Assembly (NCBI GenBank): GCA_017428325.1
Contig: JAFRRA010000002.1
Location: 62,001 to 126,000, forward strand
From: Bacteroidales bacterium
Lineage (GTDB): Bacteria > Bacteroidota > Bacteroidia > Bacteroidales > UBA932
Length of the DNA stretch: 64,000 nucleotides
Direction: 5' to 3'
In this document: in pieces, positions 50,996 to 64,000 of the stretch
How positions within the stretch are numbered: position 1 is the first letter of the stretch
Layout: every line of letters starts with the position of its first letter
Notes under the pieces: generated by a model
Database searches by the model: none
Seen by the model: the letters and a program-made list of their open reading frames with translations, nothing else
What the model was told of the DNA's origin: nothing
Program-made: the position numbers and the translations under genes

Positions 50996-51871
50996 TTAAT
51001 ACACATTGATATTGACGGTCTTGTTGTTATTGTTATTCTTAGGCTGAGATTTGGCAGGTGGTGGCAATTGTATCTTTACACTCCATGTCAAATAACTATT
51101 GTCTTTGGACATTTCTCTGAATCTGACAACAGAAACACTTCTTGGGAGAGGTTTGAATTGAACCTTAAATGTCGGATTACCGTGGTAGGCTTGATCGTTC
51201 TGGAAATTCAAAGGCTTTACCGCTTTATATACAGTTTCTGTGTCATCGTCAACCAGCGCCATTTTTGCCGTATTCATTTTCAACGCATTATAATTGCCCA
51301 AATTATAAGTGAAGTGTACGATGGTATACTCGTTGGTCCTTATGACTTTTACAACCCTTATAGATTTATTGTTCGTTGTTTGGCTAGGGTTGTTGTAAGT
51401 CTTTGAAGATCCACCCGAAGACGTCTGCCTGTTAGCGTTTGTCTGTGCGCTTTTCTTCTGTTGGCCATTGACCGGCAACGAAATATTGCTGACGATAAAC
51501 GGATTCTCTACTCCGGCAGCCTCCCTGAATGTCACCCTGGATGTACTTTTCGGCAGAGGAGGGAACTCGATCTTAAATGTTGTATTTCCGCCTTTATACT
51601 TTACTCCCCATTTGAAATTCAAGGCATCCGTGGCCTGGTATTTCTTGCCAGTGGCCTCGTCTTTCAGATAAGGATAAGCGTCAATACAGCTCCAGGCGTT
51701 AGCGCTATTTGAAGTATACTTCAGATAGACTATAGTGGCATCTGAAGTTCTTTCTACCTTGGTTACCTTGACTCTGCTGTCATTTGACTTTTGACTCGGG
51801 TTGTTATAAGTCTGGGCACCCGCAGTCAAAGCCACCAAAAGCAGGGCTGTCAATAAAAGAATCCTTTTCAT
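50996..51871 (-). CDS. Secreted protein with two copies of an unrecognised domain
   Basis: A 291-residue protein with a signal peptide (TAGA-Q). The mature chain contains two homologous domains, about residues 20-130 and 158-275, separated by a Gln/Ser/Asn-rich linker. Each shows TYNNPSQ, VVKVxRT or VTKVERT, a TIVxxxY block, LNF, then FKxxFxPLPxSxS and a VxFRE strand. It ends with PPPA and an Asn-rich tail closing in KTVNIN. It is paralogous to the product at 52491 over the whole length. I do not recognise the domain family; it may be an Ig-like periplasmic domain. Confidence 0.83.
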   Translation of the reverse strand: MKRILLLTALLLVALTAGAQTYNNPSQKSNDSRVKVTKVERTSDATIVYLKYTSNSANAWSCIDAYPYLKDEATGKKYQATDALNFKWGVKYKGGNTTFKIEFPPLPKSTSRVTFREAAGVENPFIVSNISLPVNGQQKKSAQTNANRQTSSGGSSKTYNNPSQTTNNKSIRVVKVIRTNEYTIVHFTYNLGNYNALKMNTAKMALVDDDTETVYKAVKPLNFQNDQAYHGNPTFKVQFKPLPRSVSVVRFREMSKDNSYLTWSVKIQLPPPAKSQPKNNNNNKTVNINVY

Positions 51872-52490: not shown

Positions 52491-53444
52491 TTACATGTTG
52501 ATAATCACGGTTTTGTTGCCGCTGTTGTTTTTAGGTTTCGGTTCTGCAGGAGGCGGTAGCTGGATGTTGTAAACTTCCTTCTCATAGCTTTTGAAAGTCA
52601 CTTCCGAAACACTTCTCGGTAGAGGCGGGAATTCGATCTTATATGTATTGGCATTTGGATAATCATAGCTGTCTATGAAATTAAGTGCCTTTCTCGCCTT
52701 GTATTTCTTGTTAGTGTCTTCATCTATCAATTCCACAAACGCGGTATAAACACTACCGCCTTGAGAAATATAGAAGTGAACGACGGTAGATGTTTTTGTC
52801 CTTATGACTTTTGTTACCTTATACCAAGAATTTCTTGGGCGTTGACGCGGGTTAGTGTAGGTGGTCTTTCCGTCTACAGTCTGAATGTTCGGCGATGAAG
52901 TTTTCTTAGCCGTAGTCTGCTTTTTGGCGGTTGTCTTCTGTTTTGTTGCAGTCTGTTTCTTGGCCGTGGTCTGCTTTTTGGCTGTAGTTGCAGTCTGCTT
53001 CTTGGCCGTAGTCTGTTTGCTTTGAGTTGTATTTTGGGTGCTTGCCTTGGTCAATGTTATGTTTTTGATTATCCAAGGGTTCTGGACACCATCAGCCTCC
53101 TTGTACGTTAGTTTGGTAGCGGATGCCGGAAGAGGCGGGAATTTGATTTTAAATGTGATATTTCCCACATATTGTGCACCCCATTTGAAATTCGCCGCTG
53201 CTGTTGCCTTATATTTTTTGCCTGTGGCCTGGTCTGTGAGTGTGGGATAAGCGTCTATCATGCCCGCACTGTTACTTGTCGGAGAAGAATACTTCAGATA
53301 GACCATAGTGTAGTTGGCGAATTTTTCCACCTTGGACACTTTAACAGTCTTGCTGTTGGAACTTTGCGGCGGATTAACGTATGTCTGCGCACTGGAAGCA
53401 AATCCAATGAAGAGCAAGGCTGTCAGCAAAAGAATCCTTTTCAT
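52491..53444 (-). CDS. Secreted two-domain protein with a Lys/Thr/Gln repeat linker
   Basis: A 317-residue paralogue of the protein at 50996. Signal peptide (FASSA-Q), domain 1 (about 20-132), a linker of about 50 residues made of repeats such as AKKQTT, and domain 2 (about 193-300), then the same C-terminal pattern LPPPAEPKPKNN and KTVIIN. The linker is very basic (histone-H1-like) and could bind nucleic acid, LPS or peptidoglycan, which is only inference. Function unknown. Confidence 0.83.
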   Translation of the reverse strand: MKRILLLTALLFIGFASSAQTYVNPPQSSNSKTVKVSKVEKFANYTMVYLKYSSPTSNSAGMIDAYPTLTDQATGKKYKATAAANFKWGAQYVGNITFKIKFPPLPASATKLTYKEADGVQNPWIIKNITLTKASTQNTTQSKQTTAKKQTATTAKKQTTAKKQTATKQKTTAKKQTTAKKTSSPNIQTVDGKTTYTNPRQRPRNSWYKVTKVIRTKTSTVVHFYISQGGSVYTAFVELIDEDTNKKYKARKALNFIDSYDYPNANTYKIEFPPLPRSVSEVTFKSYEKEVYNIQLPPPAEPKPKNNSGNKTVIINM

Positions 53445-58223: not shown

Positions 58224-59366
58224 ATGAGAAAGGTATTATTCCTGGCAGCCGCCCTTCTTTTGGCGGCATGCAGCGGCGACAAGGCGACACTCAAGCTGAA
58301 GGTGGACGGTGCCGCAAACAGGGACGTGGTGCTCAGCCTTCTGAATGTCAGCAAGGTGGAGGTTGTGGACACTCTCAAGACAGATGCCTCCGGAAAGGCT
58401 TCCGCCAAGATAGACCTCCCTTACAAATCTCCGAATTTCTACTATCTGAACTATAACGGGATCCAGATAGCGTCCCTGCTCCTCAGCCCCGGTGACAGAG
58501 TGAAGGTGGAGGCAGACAGCAACGGCAGGAACGTGAAGATTTCCGGCAGCAAGGAGTGTGAACTGCTCCAGGAGGTTGATGCCGCGATTGCCAAGGGACA
58601 GAAGTCTTTTGACTCCCTGAGCGTTCAGCTGATAGCCTGCAATGAAATCGGCGACACTGAAAGCGGAAAGAGGCTCCGCTACGAGCTGGGCAGACTCTAT
58701 GTGGCCCAGAAGCAGGCCGCTGTAAAGCACCTTGTGCAGCATCCTTATTCGTTCACCAACCTGAGGAACCTCTACAGGCAGTTCAACGAGAACTTCCCGC
58801 TGTTCTCGGAGATTACAGACGGTGTCTACTACCGCCAGCTAGCTGATTCCCTGCAGACCCTTTATCCAAACTCTCCGTATGTTGCGGCTCTGGACAACGA
58901 TGCTACAGCTCTGTTCAACGATATGGAACTGTCCTACAGGGTGAAGAACGCCGAGCAGACCAGTTTCCCTGAGATAGCCCTTCCGGACAACAGGGCGAAT
59001 GTGAGGAAACTCACGGAACTTGCAGGCAGGCCGTTCATCCTTCTGTTCTGGGACGCTTCTGACAATACCCAGAAGATGTTCAATGCAGAACTCGAGAAGA
59101 TTTATTCCCAGTTCAGCGGAAGGGGGCTTGAGATCTATTCTGTATGCATTACGACAGACAAGGCTTACTGGAACTCGATCGTGAGCCGCTTTGGATGGAT
59201 AAACGTTTGCGACGGCAAGGGAAACGCGTCTCAAAGCCTTGTACAGTACAACGTTACAAAGCTTCCTGCTCTCTTCCTGTTTAATAAGGACGGAGCGATA
59301 GTGGGAAAAGACATCTTTGACAACAAGGGATTGGTCAAAGCAGTTTCTTCTGTTTGCCTGGAATAA
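58224..59366 (+). CDS. Thioredoxin-fold lipoprotein without the CxxC active site
   Basis: A 380-residue protein with lipobox LAAC (Cys16). N-terminal residues 20-110 resemble the DUF4369 domain found in TlpA-like Bacteroidota proteins. C-terminal residues 245-375 form a thioredoxin fold: FILLFWDASDNTQK where WCxxC is normally found, and the cis-Pro loop KLPALFLF. There is no CxxC in this position, so it cannot act as a standard disulfide oxidoreductase. A structural or binding role is possible. Its end overlaps tsaB, on the opposite strand, by 32 bp. Confidence 0.87.
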   Translation: MRKVLFLAAALLLAACSGDKATLKLKVDGAANRDVVLSLLNVSKVEVVDTLKTDASGKASAKIDLPYKSPNFYYLNYNGIQIASLLLSPGDRVKVEADSNGRNVKISGSKECELLQEVDAAIAKGQKSFDSLSVQLIACNEIGDTESGKRLRYELGRLYVAQKQAAVKHLVQHPYSFTNLRNLYRQFNENFPLFSEITDGVYYRQLADSLQTLYPNSPYVAALDNDATALFNDMELSYRVKNAEQTSFPEIALPDNRANVRKLTELAGRPFILLFWDASDNTQKMFNAELEKIYSQFSGRGLEIYSVCITTDKAYWNSIVSRFGWINVCDGKGNASQSLVQYNVTKLPALFLFNKDGAIVGKDIFDNKGLVKAVSSVCLE

Positions 59367-60039
59367 AATCCTTGAGATAGAAAGGCTGGAAATAAGCCAG
59401 GTCCGCAAACCTTCCTTCTTCCACTGCCTTTGAAGCGTCGGTCCTGAGACCCGAGGCCAACGGTGCCTGGTCCAGGACCGTTGCATTTTCCGGGATACGC
59501 CCGTAAGCCTCTTCCAGAAGCCTGCCGAACTTTGGAGCTCCGTTACCGGCAAAAAGGACCGGTCCTTCTTCTATCAGATTCCTGAAACTTCCGGCATCCA
59601 GAATCCTGGCCTCTGTCTTTTCTTCCTGGCGGCATCCGCCGTCAAATACAGCGGTGTAGACCTCCATCCTTCCGGCGTCAATCATGGGGACTATATGCCT
59701 GAAATCTTTGCCCAGGGTTTCCAGCGCGCAACGGGCTATGACTGCCAGCGTGCTGATTCCTATGAGATTTGTCTTTGCGGCATAAGCTATCCCCTTGGCA
59801 AGGGAAACGCCTATGCGGAGACCCATATAGCTTCCCGGACCTTCACTCACGGCTACTGCCGCAAGGTCCTTGGGAGAAACTCCATTTTCCTTGAGGATTT
59901 CTTCTGTCAGCGGTGCAAGGACGGTATCGTGGCTGCGCCCTATGTGGTATACCTTCTGGGCAATCAGGAGATTACCGTCAGACAGGGCGGCCGAACAGGT
60001 CTCCGTCGCGGATTCTATCAGAAGAATGAATTTGCCCAT
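59335..60039 (-). CDS. tsaB: tRNA threonylcarbamoyladenosine biosynthesis protein TsaB
   Basis: TsaB is a non-catalytic ASKHA-fold partner of TsaD in t6A tRNA modification. 234 residues with ILLIESATETCSAAL at the start, VSEGPGSYMGLRIGVSLAKGIA near residue 66, MIDAGRMEVYTAV and the short C-terminal region. The length fits. Convergent with the upstream gene (32-bp overlap) and 13 bp after the adaptor gene, so it may be co-transcribed with the export genes. Confidence 0.95.
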   Translation of the reverse strand: MGKFILLIESATETCSAALSDGNLLIAQKVYHIGRSHDTVLAPLTEEILKENGVSPKDLAAVAVSEGPGSYMGLRIGVSLAKGIAYAAKTNLIGISTLAVIARCALETLGKDFRHIVPMIDAGRMEVYTAVFDGGCRQEEKTEARILDAGSFRNLIEEGPVLFAGNGAPKFGRLLEEAYGRIPENATVLDQAPLASGLRTDASKAVEEGRFADLAYFQPFYLKDFIPGKQKKLL

Positions 60040-60052
60040 CGCTGAGGAAGAT

Positions 60053-61285
60053 TTATTTCTTTGTCTTGTCAGTGGAGAGTTTCACCTTCGATCCGTCATG
60101 CAGGGTCTTGCTTATGGCGGAGAACGGCCCTGTTACAACCGTGGATGAATCTGAAAGCCCGCCTGTTATCTGGATATGGGTCATATCCTGGAGGCCGGTC
60201 TTTACAGCCACCGGACTTACGGTCTGGCTTTGCGGGTTATAAATGAAGACAAAAGCCTTTCCTTCCGATCCCGTTACCAGGTCTCCCCTTGACGTGATGG
60301 CCGAGATAGGGAGGGCGAGGACATTCTCCGCCTTGCTGGTCTGGATCTGGACAGACGCGCTCATTCCGGGACGGAAAGGAGAAGCGTTCTCTTTCAGGAG
60401 GTCCAGATAGGACTCCGGAGCAATCCTTACCTTGACTTCGAACGTGGTGGCCTGGTCCAGGGATGCTGTGGAAGAACTCTTTGAAGAGTTTGCAACCTCA
60501 GTAACGACACCGTAGAAAGTACGGTCAGTATATGCGTCCACTGTAATCTGTGCGCTGTCTCCAGGATTCAGGCGGATGATATCGTTCTCGTTTACGTCAA
60601 CCAGGACTTCCATCTGCTTGAAGTCCGCAACCCTGAACATTTCCGTTCCGGCCATCTGGCTTGTTCCCACAACCCTTTCTCCAAGTTCAACGCTGAGCTT
60701 GGAGATGATTCCGTCCATAGGGGAATAGATGGTTGTCTTCACGAGGTTTTCCCTTGCTTCCTTGAGACGGGCCTCCGCACTGGAAATGTTATACTTTGCC
60801 CCGTCCAGCTGCTGCTGTGCCACATCCCATTCTGCGCTTGCGCTCTCGTATTCCGCCTTGGAAACAGTCCTCAGCTCGTAGAGCTTGGCGTAACGGTCAT
60901 AGTTCTGCTTTGCCCTCAGGGTCTGTGCCTGCTGCTGCTTGTATGAAGCCCTTGCGGCGTTGACGGAAGCCATGGCCTGGTCTACGGCGGACAGATAGAT
61001 ATCCTGCTTGATCTTGATGATGAGGTCTCCCTTCTTGACCTGATCCCCTTCCTTTACGTGAAGTTCAACGATTTCTCCCGAAACGTCTGGGGAAATCTTG
61101 ACCTCTGTCACAGGCTGGATCTTGCCGTTGGCGGGGATTGTCTCGGTGATGGTCATCCTCTCGATTTTTGAAGCCTCCACTACAGGAGTCTGGTCTCCCT
61201 TGCACATCTTGGATGCCACCATAAGGATTATGATCAGGGCCGCAGCCGCAAGCCACCAGATATTCTTTTTCTTCTTCTTTGCCAT
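60053..61285 (-). CDS. Periplasmic adaptor (membrane fusion protein, MacA/HlyD-like)
   Basis: A 410-residue membrane fusion protein. Basic start and a single N-terminal membrane anchor (about 10-27), then the lipoyl halves (VSGEIVELHVKEGDQVKKG near residue 70 and YSPMDGIISKL near 192), a long alpha hairpin (about 100-180), a beta barrel (VLVDVNENDIIRLNPG) and a membrane-proximal domain. It bridges an inner-membrane pump and TolC. The gap after tolC is 10 bp. The pump it serves is not in the window unless it is the ABC exporter at 63191; MacB-type partners usually lie adjacent and none is seen here. Confidence 0.93.
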   Translation of the reverse strand: MAKKKKKNIWWLAAAALIIILMVASKMCKGDQTPVVEASKIERMTITETIPANGKIQPVTEVKISPDVSGEIVELHVKEGDQVKKGDLIIKIKQDIYLSAVDQAMASVNAARASYKQQQAQTLRAKQNYDRYAKLYELRTVSKAEYESASAEWDVAQQQLDGAKYNISSAEARLKEARENLVKTTIYSPMDGIISKLSVELGERVVGTSQMAGTEMFRVADFKQMEVLVDVNENDIIRLNPGDSAQITVDAYTDRTFYGVVTEVANSSKSSSTASLDQATTFEVKVRIAPESYLDLLKENASPFRPGMSASVQIQTSKAENVLALPISAITSRGDLVTGSEGKAFVFIYNPQSQTVSPVAVKTGLQDMTHIQITGGLSDSSTVVTGPFSAISKTLHDGSKVKLSTDKTKK

Positions 61286-61295
61286 TTTAAAGTGT

Positions 61296-62627
61296 TTATA
61301 AGTTTATGGCCTTGCCTTTGTAGAAATCCAGGATCTTCAACTCGAACAGATACTGGTACTTGGCCTGGTAATAGGCGCTTATCGCCTTGAACAGGTTGGT
61401 CTTGGCGATGTTGTAGTCTGTGGCGTTCATCATCCCCACATTGAATTTGTTCTCTGTATATGTAAAAGATTCCTGTATGCTTCTCATGTTCTCCCTGGCC
61501 GCCTTCATCCTTTCAAGCGCGTTGAAAGCCTCGTTGTAGGCCGTCTGGATCTCCTTGTAGAGAGACTGCTTCTGTACCTCCAGCATAATGGCGGTATTCT
61601 CTGAGGCAAGCCTTGCGTTGCGCGAAGCCATCCTTGCGCTAAGGCCGTTGAAAACAGGGATGCTGAGAGAGAATCCCAAAGACGGGTTCTTGTTATGCTC
61701 GAACTGGGTGAAGAATGCTCCGCTCTGTCCGTCAGTATAATAGGATCCGTATCCTGCCTGGACTGAAAGTGATGGCAGCATCCTTGCCCTGATAGCCTTG
61801 TAATCGTATTTGCTCTTTTCCAGATTATACTCGGCGATCTTGACCTGAGGCAGCTGAAGCGCCTGGGTGTAGATTCCATCCAGCGTGCCTTCCGGCAATA
61901 TGTCTTCGTTGAGCGTGCTGTCCGGAGGAACGATGTCAAAGTTCCTGGCCTCCTCTGCAGGAAGGTCGAGCAGCTGGACAAGTGTCAGGAGGTTTGTCCT
62001 CACATCTGAAGATGCGGATACCAGCTGTGATTTCTCGTTTGCCAGCTGTGCCTGTACTTCCAGAAGGGTACTGTAGGCCTGGCTTCCGGCATCCACCAGC
62101 TTGGCTGTCCTTTCCACCTGTTCCTGAGTGCTGTTGCAGCTCTCGATGGCGCTGCGCTCTATCTCGCGTGACAGCAGTAGCTGGAGATAGGCCCTGGTTA
62201 TCTGGATTGTAATGTCGTTCTTGACTTTCTCCACCTGCTCTCTGGCTATCTCCAGTGAAGTGGCGTTGCTCTTGATGGAATTGAGCTTTGAGAATCCGGA
62301 GAAAATCGTGGCGGAAGCGCTGAGGTTTCCGCTTGTGGACATGCTTCTTTTATTCTTGATTATTTCCAGAGTCTGGAGGTTGACGCTCCTTCCCCAGCTC
62401 ATACTGTGGCTGAGTCCGGCGTTGACGGCTGGAGCAAGGTCCCATTTAGACTGGGTCAGGTTTCCTTCAGCCTGCTCCACGCTTATCTCTTCCATCTTGA
62501 CCTGCAGGTTGTTCTGCCTTGCATACTCAATGCACTGGCTCAGCGTCCAGGGACGTGGACTCTGGGCGTGTGAACTGACGCCTGATGCCAGAATGACGGC
62601 AACTGATATGACCAACAATTTTTTCAT
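61296..62627 (-). CDS. TolC-like outer-membrane efflux channel
   Basis: A 443-residue OEP-family protein with signal peptide (SSHA-Q). It shows the internal duplication of TolC: WTLSQCIEYARQNN and AEGNLTQSKWDLAPAVN, then the repeat at about 240-420 with KIAEYNLEKSKYDYKAIRARMLPSLSV and NKFNVGMMNATDYNIAK. It forms trimeric outer-membrane tunnels that dock to adaptors. It has its own -7 element and precedes the adaptor gene. Confidence 0.94.
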   Translation of the reverse strand: MKKLLVISVAVILASGVSSHAQSPRPWTLSQCIEYARQNNLQVKMEEISVEQAEGNLTQSKWDLAPAVNAGLSHSMSWGRSVNLQTLEIIKNKRSMSTSGNLSASATIFSGFSKLNSIKSNATSLEIAREQVEKVKNDITIQITRAYLQLLLSREIERSAIESCNSTQEQVERTAKLVDAGSQAYSTLLEVQAQLANEKSQLVSASSDVRTNLLTLVQLLDLPAEEARNFDIVPPDSTLNEDILPEGTLDGIYTQALQLPQVKIAEYNLEKSKYDYKAIRARMLPSLSVQAGYGSYYTDGQSGAFFTQFEHNKNPSLGFSLSIPVFNGLSARMASRNARLASENTAIMLEVQKQSLYKEIQTAYNEAFNALERMKAARENMRSIQESFTYTENKFNVGMMNATDYNIAKTNLFKAISAYYQAKYQYLFELKILDFYKGKAINL

Positions 62628-62632
62628 CGGTG

Positions 62633-62640
62633 CAAATATA
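62633..62640 (-). promoter_or_regulatory. -7 element before tolC
   Basis: Minus strand TATATTTG lies 5 bp before the tolC ATG. The predicted leader would be very short or absent. TTTG is found 15 bases upstream, closer than usual. Confidence 0.45.
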
Positions 62641-62672
62641 AAGTTTAAAGTCTAACAAAGGTTGTTTTATAG

Positions 62673-62702
62673 CAAAAAGAGGCTGACACGTAGGCCAGCC
62701 TC
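62673..62702 (-). terminator. Terminator after the peptide genes
   Basis: Minus strand: GAGGCTG, 10-base loop, CAGCCTC, then TTTTTGC. It lies 19 bp after the second peptide gene and before the tolC promoter, so peptide and tolC transcription are separable. Confidence 0.82.
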
Positions 62703-62720
62703 CATCTGAATCCGCAATTC

Positions 62721-62915
62721 TCATCTTGCGTACATCTTCAGGATCTCCACAGGAATGTTCTGTGGATTCTGCCTGTTCTGGATCAAAATCTTTATTGCCC
62801 TTACAAGGGCTCCTATGCCGTAACCCAACGCTTCCATAAAGCGGGATACGTCCGCGTCCTTTCCTCCGAAAACCAGGGTTTGCTCGCTTGCGGAGATTTC
62901 AATGAAACAGTCCAT
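62721..62915 (-). CDS. Double-glycine leader peptide 2 (predicted bacteriocin-like or signal peptide)
   Basis: A 64-residue protein. The first 18 residues end in LVFGG and have the acidic/hydrophobic pattern of a double-glycine leader (ISASEQTLVFGG). Cleavage after GG would release a 46-residue peptide that starts KDADVSRFME and contains the helix ALGYGIGALVRAIKIL with a GxxxG motif (GYGIG). It is 11 bp after peptide 1, which also gives a 46-residue mature part. No similar named peptide is recognised. Alternatively the GG is a chance match; the paired arrangement makes this less likely. Confidence 0.7.
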   Translation of the reverse strand: MDCFIEISASEQTLVFGGKDADVSRFMEALGYGIGALVRAIKILIQNRQNPQNIPVEILKMYAR

Positions 62916-62926
62916 AACTATCCTCC

Positions 62927-63139
62927 TTACCTGGTAGAGAACACGAACAGAGGCTTTCCCTCAAGTCCTTTCTTGTAGCCCTTGTAGAAATCTTCCCCAT
63001 AACTGGTGACGAAGTCTATAACAATACCTATGATCTTCGCGATCTTCCTGATGGTTTCGGGGTTAAGTCCCCCGCATACCGAGAGTTCGTCGTCTCTTGG
63101 CTCGACAAATCCGCTCCCTTTCAATCTCTTTTCTTCCAT
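62927..63139 (-). CDS. Double-glycine leader peptide 1 (predicted bacteriocin-like or signal peptide)
   Basis: A 70-residue protein. The 24-residue leader ends DDELSVCGG, which fits the classic double-glycine pattern with ELS before GG. The predicted mature peptide has 46 residues (starting LNPETIRKI), a hydrophobic core IIGIVIDFV and a C-terminal basic part with GYKKG, a GxxxG motif. It lies 51 bp after the ABC exporter gene, the natural place for its substrate. Peptidases of C39-type ABC exporters cut after GG. Function (bacteriocin or signal) is inferred. Confidence 0.75.
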   Translation of the reverse strand: MEEKRLKGSGFVEPRDDELSVCGGLNPETIRKIAKIIGIVIDFVTSYGEDFYKGYKKGLEGKPLFVFSTR

Positions 63140-63190
63140 ATTGTCAACAGTGTTTTGATTTCCGGCAGACTTGGCGCGCCGGATTCCGCC

Positions 63191-64000
63191 TTATGACCGG
63201 CCAGTCAATTCTATCTTATAGTCGCAGCAGGATGCGATTCTGCTGTCGTGAGTAATGACAATCACACATTTTCCAGATTCTTTCAGAGACTGCATAAGCC
63301 TTATGGAGGAGGCAACCGACTGCCCGTCCATATTGGATGCGGCCTCGTCGAAAATCATGACGTCCGCCCTGGAGTGCAGCATCCTTGCAGTCAGAACCAT
63401 TTGCCTTTCTCCGGAAGAAAGTCTCACTCCCCCTTTACCCAATCCCGATAGCAGTCCTTTATCCAGTCTTTGGATCAGAGGCTCCATACCTGCACGGCGG
63501 CAGGAATCCATAACCCGTTCTATCTCTGAATTAACTATGTAGCTGTCCCTTCTTCCCGGAGACATGGCAATGTTGTCAAAAATGGTGGCATTGAACAGGT
63601 GAGAGTTTTGAGGAACGGCAGATACAATGTTCCTCCAGCAAGTTGAATCTATCAGATTGATGTCAATGCCACCATAGGTGATTTTTCCGCTGTCCGGAAT
63701 GTAATCGCGGAGTATCAGTGAAGCGACTGTGCTCTTCCCGCATCCGTTAGGGCCCAGGATGCCCGTAATGCATCCTTTGCGGAACGTGCAGCTCAGATTG
63801 TCTATCAAGGCCTTTCCTCCGCGATATCTGAAGCAGACATTCTGGAAAACCAGGTCCTTTGGCTCTCCGGCCCGGGCGGTGAAAGTTTCAGCCGGGCCGT
63901 CCGGATTCACGTCGCTGAAGGAAGTTATCCCGTGTATTCTTTCAGAAGCCGTAACGGCCTCGTTCATAAGCGAGTCGAACTGTACCAGGGTGCTTGTCGG
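63191..64000 (-). CDS. ABC exporter, ATP-binding domain and end of the membrane domain (N-terminus outside the window)
   Basis: 269 codons are visible, open to the right edge. The start continues upstream: residues before the ATG at 63967 (LVQFDSL, then NEAVTASERIHGI) are the end of a fused membrane domain, so this is a half-transporter exporter, not a stand-alone ATPase. Walker A GPNGCGKST, Q-loop VPQNSHLF, signature LSSGERQ (variant of LSGGQ), Walker B VMIFDEAASNMD and the switch His in ITHDS are present. Association with two GG-leader genes suggests a peptidase-containing (C39) exporter. A C39 domain would be upstream of the edge and cannot be seen. Confidence 0.85.
   Translation of the reverse strand, partial: PTSTLVQFDSLMNEAVTASERIHGITSFSDVNPDGPAETFTARAGEPKDLVFQNVCFRYRGGKALIDNLSCTFRKGCITGILGPNGCGKSTVASLILRDYIPDSGKITYGGIDINLIDSTCWRNIVSAVPQNSHLFNATIFDNIAMSPGRRDSYIVNSEIERVMDSCRRAGMEPLIQRLDKGLLSGLGKGGVRLSSGERQMVLTARMLHSRADVMIFDEAASNMDGQSVASSIRLMQSLKESGKCVIVITHDSRIASCCDYKIELTGRS

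Follow-up and report, generated by a model that had tools for sequence, protein, structure and literature searches.

Tandem double-glycine leader peptides beside a C39 ABC exporter at a conserved Bacteroidales site: a possible class IIb-like pair

Introduction

Two short genes directly after an ABC exporter gene in a Bacteroidales genome raise the question of what their products are and on which cells they act. Two-peptide systems with Gly-Gly (GG) leaders are best known from Gram-positive bacteria. The class IIb bacteriocins, such as lactococcin G and plantaricin EF/JK, comprise an adjacent pair of helical, cationic peptides with GG leaders and GxxxG motifs, served by a C39 ABC exporter.

The window analysed here is a stretch of 64,000 nucleotides (C1:62001-126000) from an assembly of 1.95 Mb in 7 contigs, 89% complete. 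A sequence-only reading of this window had proposed the layout of a two-peptide bacteriocin or peptide signal. The layout stands, with a tandem GG pair, a C39 exporter and GxxxG motifs, and the name bacteriocin is not established. A literature search over open-licence PMC papers returned none that appears to describe the locus.

Gene content of the locus

Both proposed reading frames were found directly after the exporter gene. On the minus strand, the transcription order is exporter, pepA, pepB, tolC, hlyD and tsaB. Positions 63191..64000 (-) cover the 3' portion of the gene for the C39-peptidase ABC exporter, which as a whole encodes 712 aa and runs on to the equivalent of position 65329. 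The first peptide gene, pepA (62927..63139, -), encodes 70 aa, read as a leader of 24 and a mature part of 46 residues, and pepB (62721..62915, -) follows after 11 nt, encoding 64 aa with a leader of 18 and a mature part of 46. The pepB/tolC gap contains a terminator-like hairpin with a T run, of the intrinsic-terminator type (62670..62703, -), and a -7-like element, TATATTTG (62633..62640, -), just 5' of tolC, marking a possible separate tolC promoter. The TolC-type outer membrane channel (443 aa; 61296..62627, -) scores above the Pfam cut-off for OEP, with a TIGR01844 match below its cut-off, and the HlyD/MacA-type periplasmic adaptor (410 aa; 60053..61285, -) matches TIGR01730 above cut-off and carries HlyD domains. 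The tRNA t6A gene tsaB (59335..60039, -; PF00814) marks the site as a flank outside the system. Beyond the window, 5' of the exporter, the sequence continues with a 59-aa ORF containing a single hydrophobic segment, cvpA (PF02674) and the divergent ileS.

Conservation of the peptide genes

Homologue searches with the peptides returned 13 close relatives and a genus-wide tandem GG pair. The pepA relatives are 84-58% identical and lie in 13 Bacteroidales MAG loci, with a pepB relative present in 13/13 of them. Seven originate from buffalo or yak forestomach, five are RUG genomes, which we take to be from rumen, and one is without a stated source. The order cvpA, exporter, pepA, pepB, tolC, hlyD is common to all 13, followed by tsaB in 12, with L009 showing none. 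Together with 40 diverged and 12 further loci, collected by peptide match or synteny, these relatives and the window form a set of 66 loci, the counts over which are not independent because the loci are related. Locus L096 was excluded as a different locus, with another C39 exporter in genus g9.

In 40/40 diverged loci, pepA is followed by an ORF whose GG stands at leader distance, the pepA frame of two, missed by start choice, having been read separately. In a control using the same search, a GG ORF was found behind pepA in 39/40 loci, the single miss having its start just outside the searched range, versus 44/1000 random positions in the same loci. Pooled dN/dS, computed with our own script over six close species, was 0.093 for mature pepA and 0.135 for mature pepB, with leaders at 0.355 and 0.194, respectively. 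The corresponding values were 0.138 for the exporter, 0.108 for tsaB, 0.064 for tolC, 0.054 for hlyD and 0.178 for the small transmembrane (TM) ORF ahead of the exporter. Poorly conserved short frames had been named as a point that would speak against the peptides; profile matches and dN/dS show the frames to be well conserved. Judged from these ratios, the mature parts are real and under purifying selection, about as strict as that on the exporter and tsaB.

Peptide features

The leaders were described as ending in Gly-Gly, and this pair is invariant in 14/14 close pairs. Across the whole set, GG occurs at residues 12-33 in 66/66 pepA and 66/66 pepB, the latter partly by construction, since pepB was chosen by its GG. 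Locus L103 shows Ala-Gly and then Gly-Gly near the pepA cleavage site. A mature length of exactly 46 residues is correct for both window peptides and was rejected as a family trait, with both mature parts at 46 in only 4/66 loci; it is a trait local to the closest relatives of the window. Mature lengths range over 28-51 residues for pepA and 30-49 for pepB, with the L054 pepB start picked too early in the length and motif computation, giving a false cleavage point.

GxxxG, reported for each window peptide, recurs in 62/66 pepA, near the C-terminus (shuffled mean 15.7, maximum 26), and in 53/66 pepB (shuffled mean 13.1, maximum 22), being missing from 4 and 13 loci, respectively. The mean net charge of the mature parts is +1.4 for pepA and +2.7 for pepB, and amphipathicity exceeds that of 95% of own shuffles in 57/66 pepA and 29/66 pepB. 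AF2 models pepA as one long helix over residues 27-59 (mean pLDDT 68), and pepB as a long helix over residues 20-49 with a short helix at 56-63 (mean pLDDT 65). Each mature part is thus predicted, at modest confidence, to be one long helix.

In agreement with the earlier observation that no toxin family is visible, the window peptides match no family in Pfam or NCBIfam up to E 10, or in PADLOC up to E 1. Viral contigs hold no relative matching the narrow pepA profile and plasmids none of window pepA, and a phage- or plasmid-borne peptide was rejected on these results. Among PDB sequences, pepA has no match; pepB has five, the best being PH0300 (E 2.5e-4), with no passing stretch, and these were taken as chance. 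Weak or leader-type matches came from nine further proteins, among them relatives and two of the small TM ORFs. The pepA of L051 passes the Pfam ComC model (24.0 versus cut-off 20.4; BlpC under cut-off), a match that says little on function because it covers the leader part, residues 1-31. Weak matches also link the L090 relative to lactococcin G-beta (E 0.035) and the L053 relative to VP1 (E 0.17).

Exporter

The proposed layout depended on a C39 peptidase domain at the N-terminus of the exporter. Extending the sequence past position 64000 revealed this domain (PF03412, E 6.2e-24) at C1:126886-127314 of the same genome, with Cys-His-Asp conserved, so an exporter without C39, named as contrary evidence, was not encountered. 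The 712-aa protein carries Peptidase_C39, ABC_membrane and ABC_tran, all over cut-off; a Cys-His-Asp C39 domain, a TM domain and an ATPase thus stand on one chain, as in a C39 peptidase-containing ABC exporter (PCAT). The triad Cys15/His105/Asp121 is conserved, with His and Asp in 66/66 aligned exporters and Cys in 65/66, L056 being clipped there by the alignment and showing the motif on reading. Walker and signature motifs are retained in the aligned exporters. Among solved structures, the closest chains belong to a bacteriocin exporter (4ry2), presumably PCAT1, and to ComA. Against the NCBIfam bacteriocin exporter model TIGR01193 the score was 291.6, below the cut-off of 523.9. The predicted cleavage after GG and export by this C39 exporter are well supported by anatomy.

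Transcription signals and downstream genes

A terminator-like hairpin separates pepB from the next gene in 26/66 loci (0.2 expected), the window and each of its 13 closest relatives among them, and TAnnTTTG occurs within the last 70 nt before the gene after pepB in 38/66 (2.1 expected), both expectations coming from mononucleotide shuffles, which keep base content only. In such loci the exporter unit probably ends before tolC, with tolC having its own start. In other genera, a good part of the loci instead have tolC within 50 nt of pepB. Upstream, a site of the form TTTG-N17-22-[CT]AnnTTTG, whose [CT] variant was selected with the window already in view, stands ahead of where the small TM ORF lies in the window and in each of the 13 closest relatives, and it is present in 16/59 gaps with cvpA upstream versus 0.5 expected. 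When a cassette promoter was sought in the strict two-box TAnnTTTG form, 0/59 of these gaps matched.

Downstream, tolC is present in 60 of the 66 loci and hlyD in 59. In 7/66 the two do not both lie beside the peptides; L048 and L069, two of these, are on contigs that end early, and the L061 contig does not. Four loci (L054, L055, L058 and L062) show a strong terminator-like hairpin after pepB, followed by tsaB, with no tolC or hlyD at the site; their peptides would therefore need another outer-membrane route. After control, neither peptide co-diverges with HlyD (partial r -0.04 for one and -0.05 for the other, both rough values), and for this reason HlyD/TolC may be general pumps. Passage of the peptides out through HlyD/TolC appears likely.

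Distribution, site and inheritance

Of the 66 loci, 59 have cvpA upstream, 61 have divergent ileS and 62 have tsaB downstream. The narrow pepA profile matches 29/39 genus genomes and 71/299 family genomes, and the broad profile 132/299 family genomes, including 37/39 of the genus, spread over 10/25 genera. Of 393 genomes drawn across the order, the broad profile matched 3, all in the own family, and 0/387 outside it (6 of the 393 belong to the family). Diverged pairs can escape the profile: G058 (g21) and G042 (g5) are unmatched, yet two GG peptides follow a C39 exporter there at the same site.

Searches for pepA, pepB and C39 match the identical 37/39 genus genomes, the other two showing none of the three. 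In 37/37 of these carriers, pepB lies within 400 nt of pepA and C39 within 2.6 kb, and 28/37 have no other C39 match. One genus genome without the cassette, G026, is a fragmented assembly with tsaB at a contig end, so its absence may be an assembly gap. The other, G037 (locus L092), retains cvpA-tolC-hlyD-tsaB with a cvpA-tolC gap of 152 nt. The same arrangement without the cassette, with a gap of 137 nt, occurs in G044 (g7; L097), and in G045 (L093) and G059 (L094) cvpA adjoins tsaB. From the shared matches and the cassette-free sites, the cassette seems to be gained and lost as a unit at the cvpA/tsaB site. C39 and TsaB share a contig within about 7 kb in 6/36 genomes checked, namely G020, G113, G047 and G110, chosen as carriers, together with G042 and G058; outside the family, 0/12 genomes checked have C39 near TsaB, 8 of them having a C39 match.

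Mantel correlation with IleS distances reached 0.71 for pepA and 0.68 for pepB over 62 loci, with 0/999 permutations as high, and 0.70 for TsaB over 59 loci. The peptides thus diverge with IleS as TsaB does, a pattern that vertical inheritance gives. By these comparisons, the locus belongs to the core of the genus and is vertically inherited. After control for IleS, TsaB and HlyD, pepA and pepB distances remain correlated (partial r 0.62, n=55), dropping to 0.33 (n=55) with the exporter also controlled, values that are rough because peptide-TsaB controls give 0.56.

A small TM protein as candidate protector

That no recognised immunity gene is visible applies within the window; just past its end lies the one-TM ORF, a candidate. 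In 42/66 loci, the exporter is preceded by an ORF of 45-105 aa that contains a strongly hydrophobic stretch, the single TM segment being called from hydropathy only. In 38 of these loci it lies between cvpA and the exporter, and in L047, L070, L074 and L090 within 500 nt before the exporter, with no cvpA upstream. Reading the gap in the other 24/66 loci (L046 unread, L056 only partly) found none, and no such ORF lies between the flanking genes of G037 and G044, which are without the cassette. The L091 ORF, at 105 aa, is probably unrelated. Family matches are weak: the window ORF gives Bbp19 at E 0.0072 and Sigma_reg_N at E 0.24, and L067 gives MS_channel at E 0.22. The small protein is a candidate immunity or accessory protein and no more. 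Its role as an essential immunity gene is weakened, the ORF not being seen in 24/66 loci that have both peptides.

Proposed function and alternatives

The best reading, to which we assign a probability of roughly 55%, is that pepA and pepB form a class IIb-like pair, active on membranes and processed by a C39 exporter of their own. We infer rather than observe the cleavage, outer-membrane passage, pairing, membrane action and target that this reading involves. The two peptides would be synthesised with GG leaders, which the C39 domain of the adjoining ABC exporter would cut after GG during export, with HlyD/TolC, or another outer-membrane route where these are missing, most likely carrying the peptides outside. 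The helical GxxxG peptides would then act jointly on the membrane of neighbouring cells in class IIb fashion, a joint action suggested by the pairing, the GxxxG motifs and the helices, and the small one-TM protein might serve as protector or accessory.

In the anatomy examined, the locus matches class IIb, save for a sure immunity gene: the adjacent pair, GG leaders, C39 exporter, GxxxG in both peptides, predicted helices and average cationic charge. It differs in its Gram-negative host, in the HlyD/TolC genes beside it, in an immunity gene that is a candidate only, and in belonging to no recognised sequence family, the weak lactococcin G-beta match being confined to one relative. The pair is read here as class IIb-like and is not filed as a bacteriocin. 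Further points against the class IIb reading are the apparent vertical inheritance and purifying selection, unlike typical bacteriocins; a core locus of this kind contrasts with the patchy, exchanged loci usual for such a layout. The loci in which the small TM ORF was not seen, the peptides lacking GxxxG, the loci without both tolC and hlyD beside the peptides, the HlyD partial correlations and the exporter score below the TIGR01193 cut-off also count against it.

These same points raise a tentative proposal, against which the odds still lie, that this is a clade-defining vertical C39 system whose main role would not be warfare, acting in a core peptide dialogue or as a fixed, shared, self-regulating toxin pair. 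According to the available text of the Nostoc HetC paper, Gram-negative C39 exporters probably act beyond toxin export, evidence for which is absent (PMC10986499). If the non-warfare proposal were true, the locus would provide a Gram-negative C39 exporter with likely substrates, testable beyond toxin export; as it stands, it names one such exporter together with its likely substrates. More broadly, a conserved Bacteroidota pair with a full export route at a core site in a ruminant-derived lineage supplies defined peptides for assays of killing or signalling.

A conserved peptide signal, with pepA and/or pepB as exported messengers read by same-species kin and diverging slowly with the species, seems unlikely. 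Presence in 37/39 genus genomes, purifying selection and divergence with IleS suit it, as do the absence of viral relatives for the narrow pepA profile and of plasmid relatives for window pepA. The L051 ComC match also points this way, limited though it is to the leader part, and Nostoc HetC is a proposed exporter of a signalling peptide needed for differentiation, as far as the accessible part of that paper goes (PMC10986499). By eye, however, the block contains no receptor or kinase gene, the set of ECF sigma factor-, FecR-type anti-sigma- and TonB-dependent receptor-like genes (L002:13684-18602, +) lying about 7 kb upstream of the exporter, and two dissimilar helical GxxxG peptides exceed what a signal needs.

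Distinctly improbable is a reading in which the small TM protein confers immunity to a contact-dependent, cell-surface two-peptide toxin on the plan of Caulobacter Cdz. The portion of the Cdz report that was available describes two small secreted proteins, CdzC and CdzD, with a small TM immunity protein, CdzI (PMC5380434), and the present locus resembles this arrangement in its two short peptides with a glycine motif, its type I exporter and its small TM gene. By the same partial description, to which the comparison is limited, the Cdz N-termini resemble RTX secretion signals, unlike the GG leaders here, and CdzI has three predicted TM segments versus one, by hydropathy only, in the present ORF (PMC5380434); the candidate immunity ORF is also not seen in 24/66 loci. 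An envelope or housekeeping role, in which the peptides would modulate their own envelope or pump and not other cells, agrees with the fixed place beside cvpA and tsaB and the low dN/dS, and is the least probable of all, since the cassette is dispensable, with cvpA-tolC-hlyD-tsaB (G037, G044) and cvpA-tsaB (G045, G059) standing without it, and since GG leaders served by a dedicated C39 exporter point to export.

Comparison with other Gram-negative peptide systems

Class II microcins of the colicin V type also carry a GG leader. Their route through a C39 ABC protein, a membrane fusion protein and TolC, as given in the text available of PMC10352776, would be the nearest export model for the class IIb-like pair. 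The likeness lies in the adjacent C39 ABC, HlyD and TolC genes of the window and the cvpA family gene upstream, a CvpA link that may be coincidence because cvpA-tsaB adjacency occurs without the cassette; the differences are the presence of two peptides and, in many loci, a tolC gene with its own promoter-like element.

Bacteroidetocins, in the accessible part of their description, are single peptides with at least 2 Cys and a mature length of 42 aa, encoded beside a TM protein and mostly with a thiol oxidoreductase; the neighbouring TM protein has five TM segments in the first loci, and producers appear to be without an immunity protein (PMC6671954). They share with the present locus the Bacteroidota host, the GG leader, an ABC exporter with a double-glycine peptidase domain and a similar mature size. 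The present locus instead encodes a pair, with at least 2 Cys in the mature part of 0/66 pepA and 0/66 pepB. The neighbours in the window genome are CvpA, the small one-TM ORF, TolC, HlyD and TsaB, with no five-TM protein, and the thioredoxin-like gene lies past tsaB on the other strand. Membership was rejected on Cys count and neighbours, as far as that partial description allows.

Other features of the neighbourhood

The thioredoxin-like gene (58224-59366, +), with a DUF4369 match just below cut-off, and tsaB share 32 nt at their 3' ends, an overlap also present in close relatives. Elsewhere in the window, two near-adjacent genes (50996-51871 and 52491-53444, -) encode secreted-looking paralogues with repeat units (YNNPSQ...KVTKV...VHF). 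Just past the window, L002:10770-11753 (+) encodes a long Lys/Ala/Pro repeat of the KKVVAKAPAKK type, followed by a C-terminal part that looks DksA/TraR-like.
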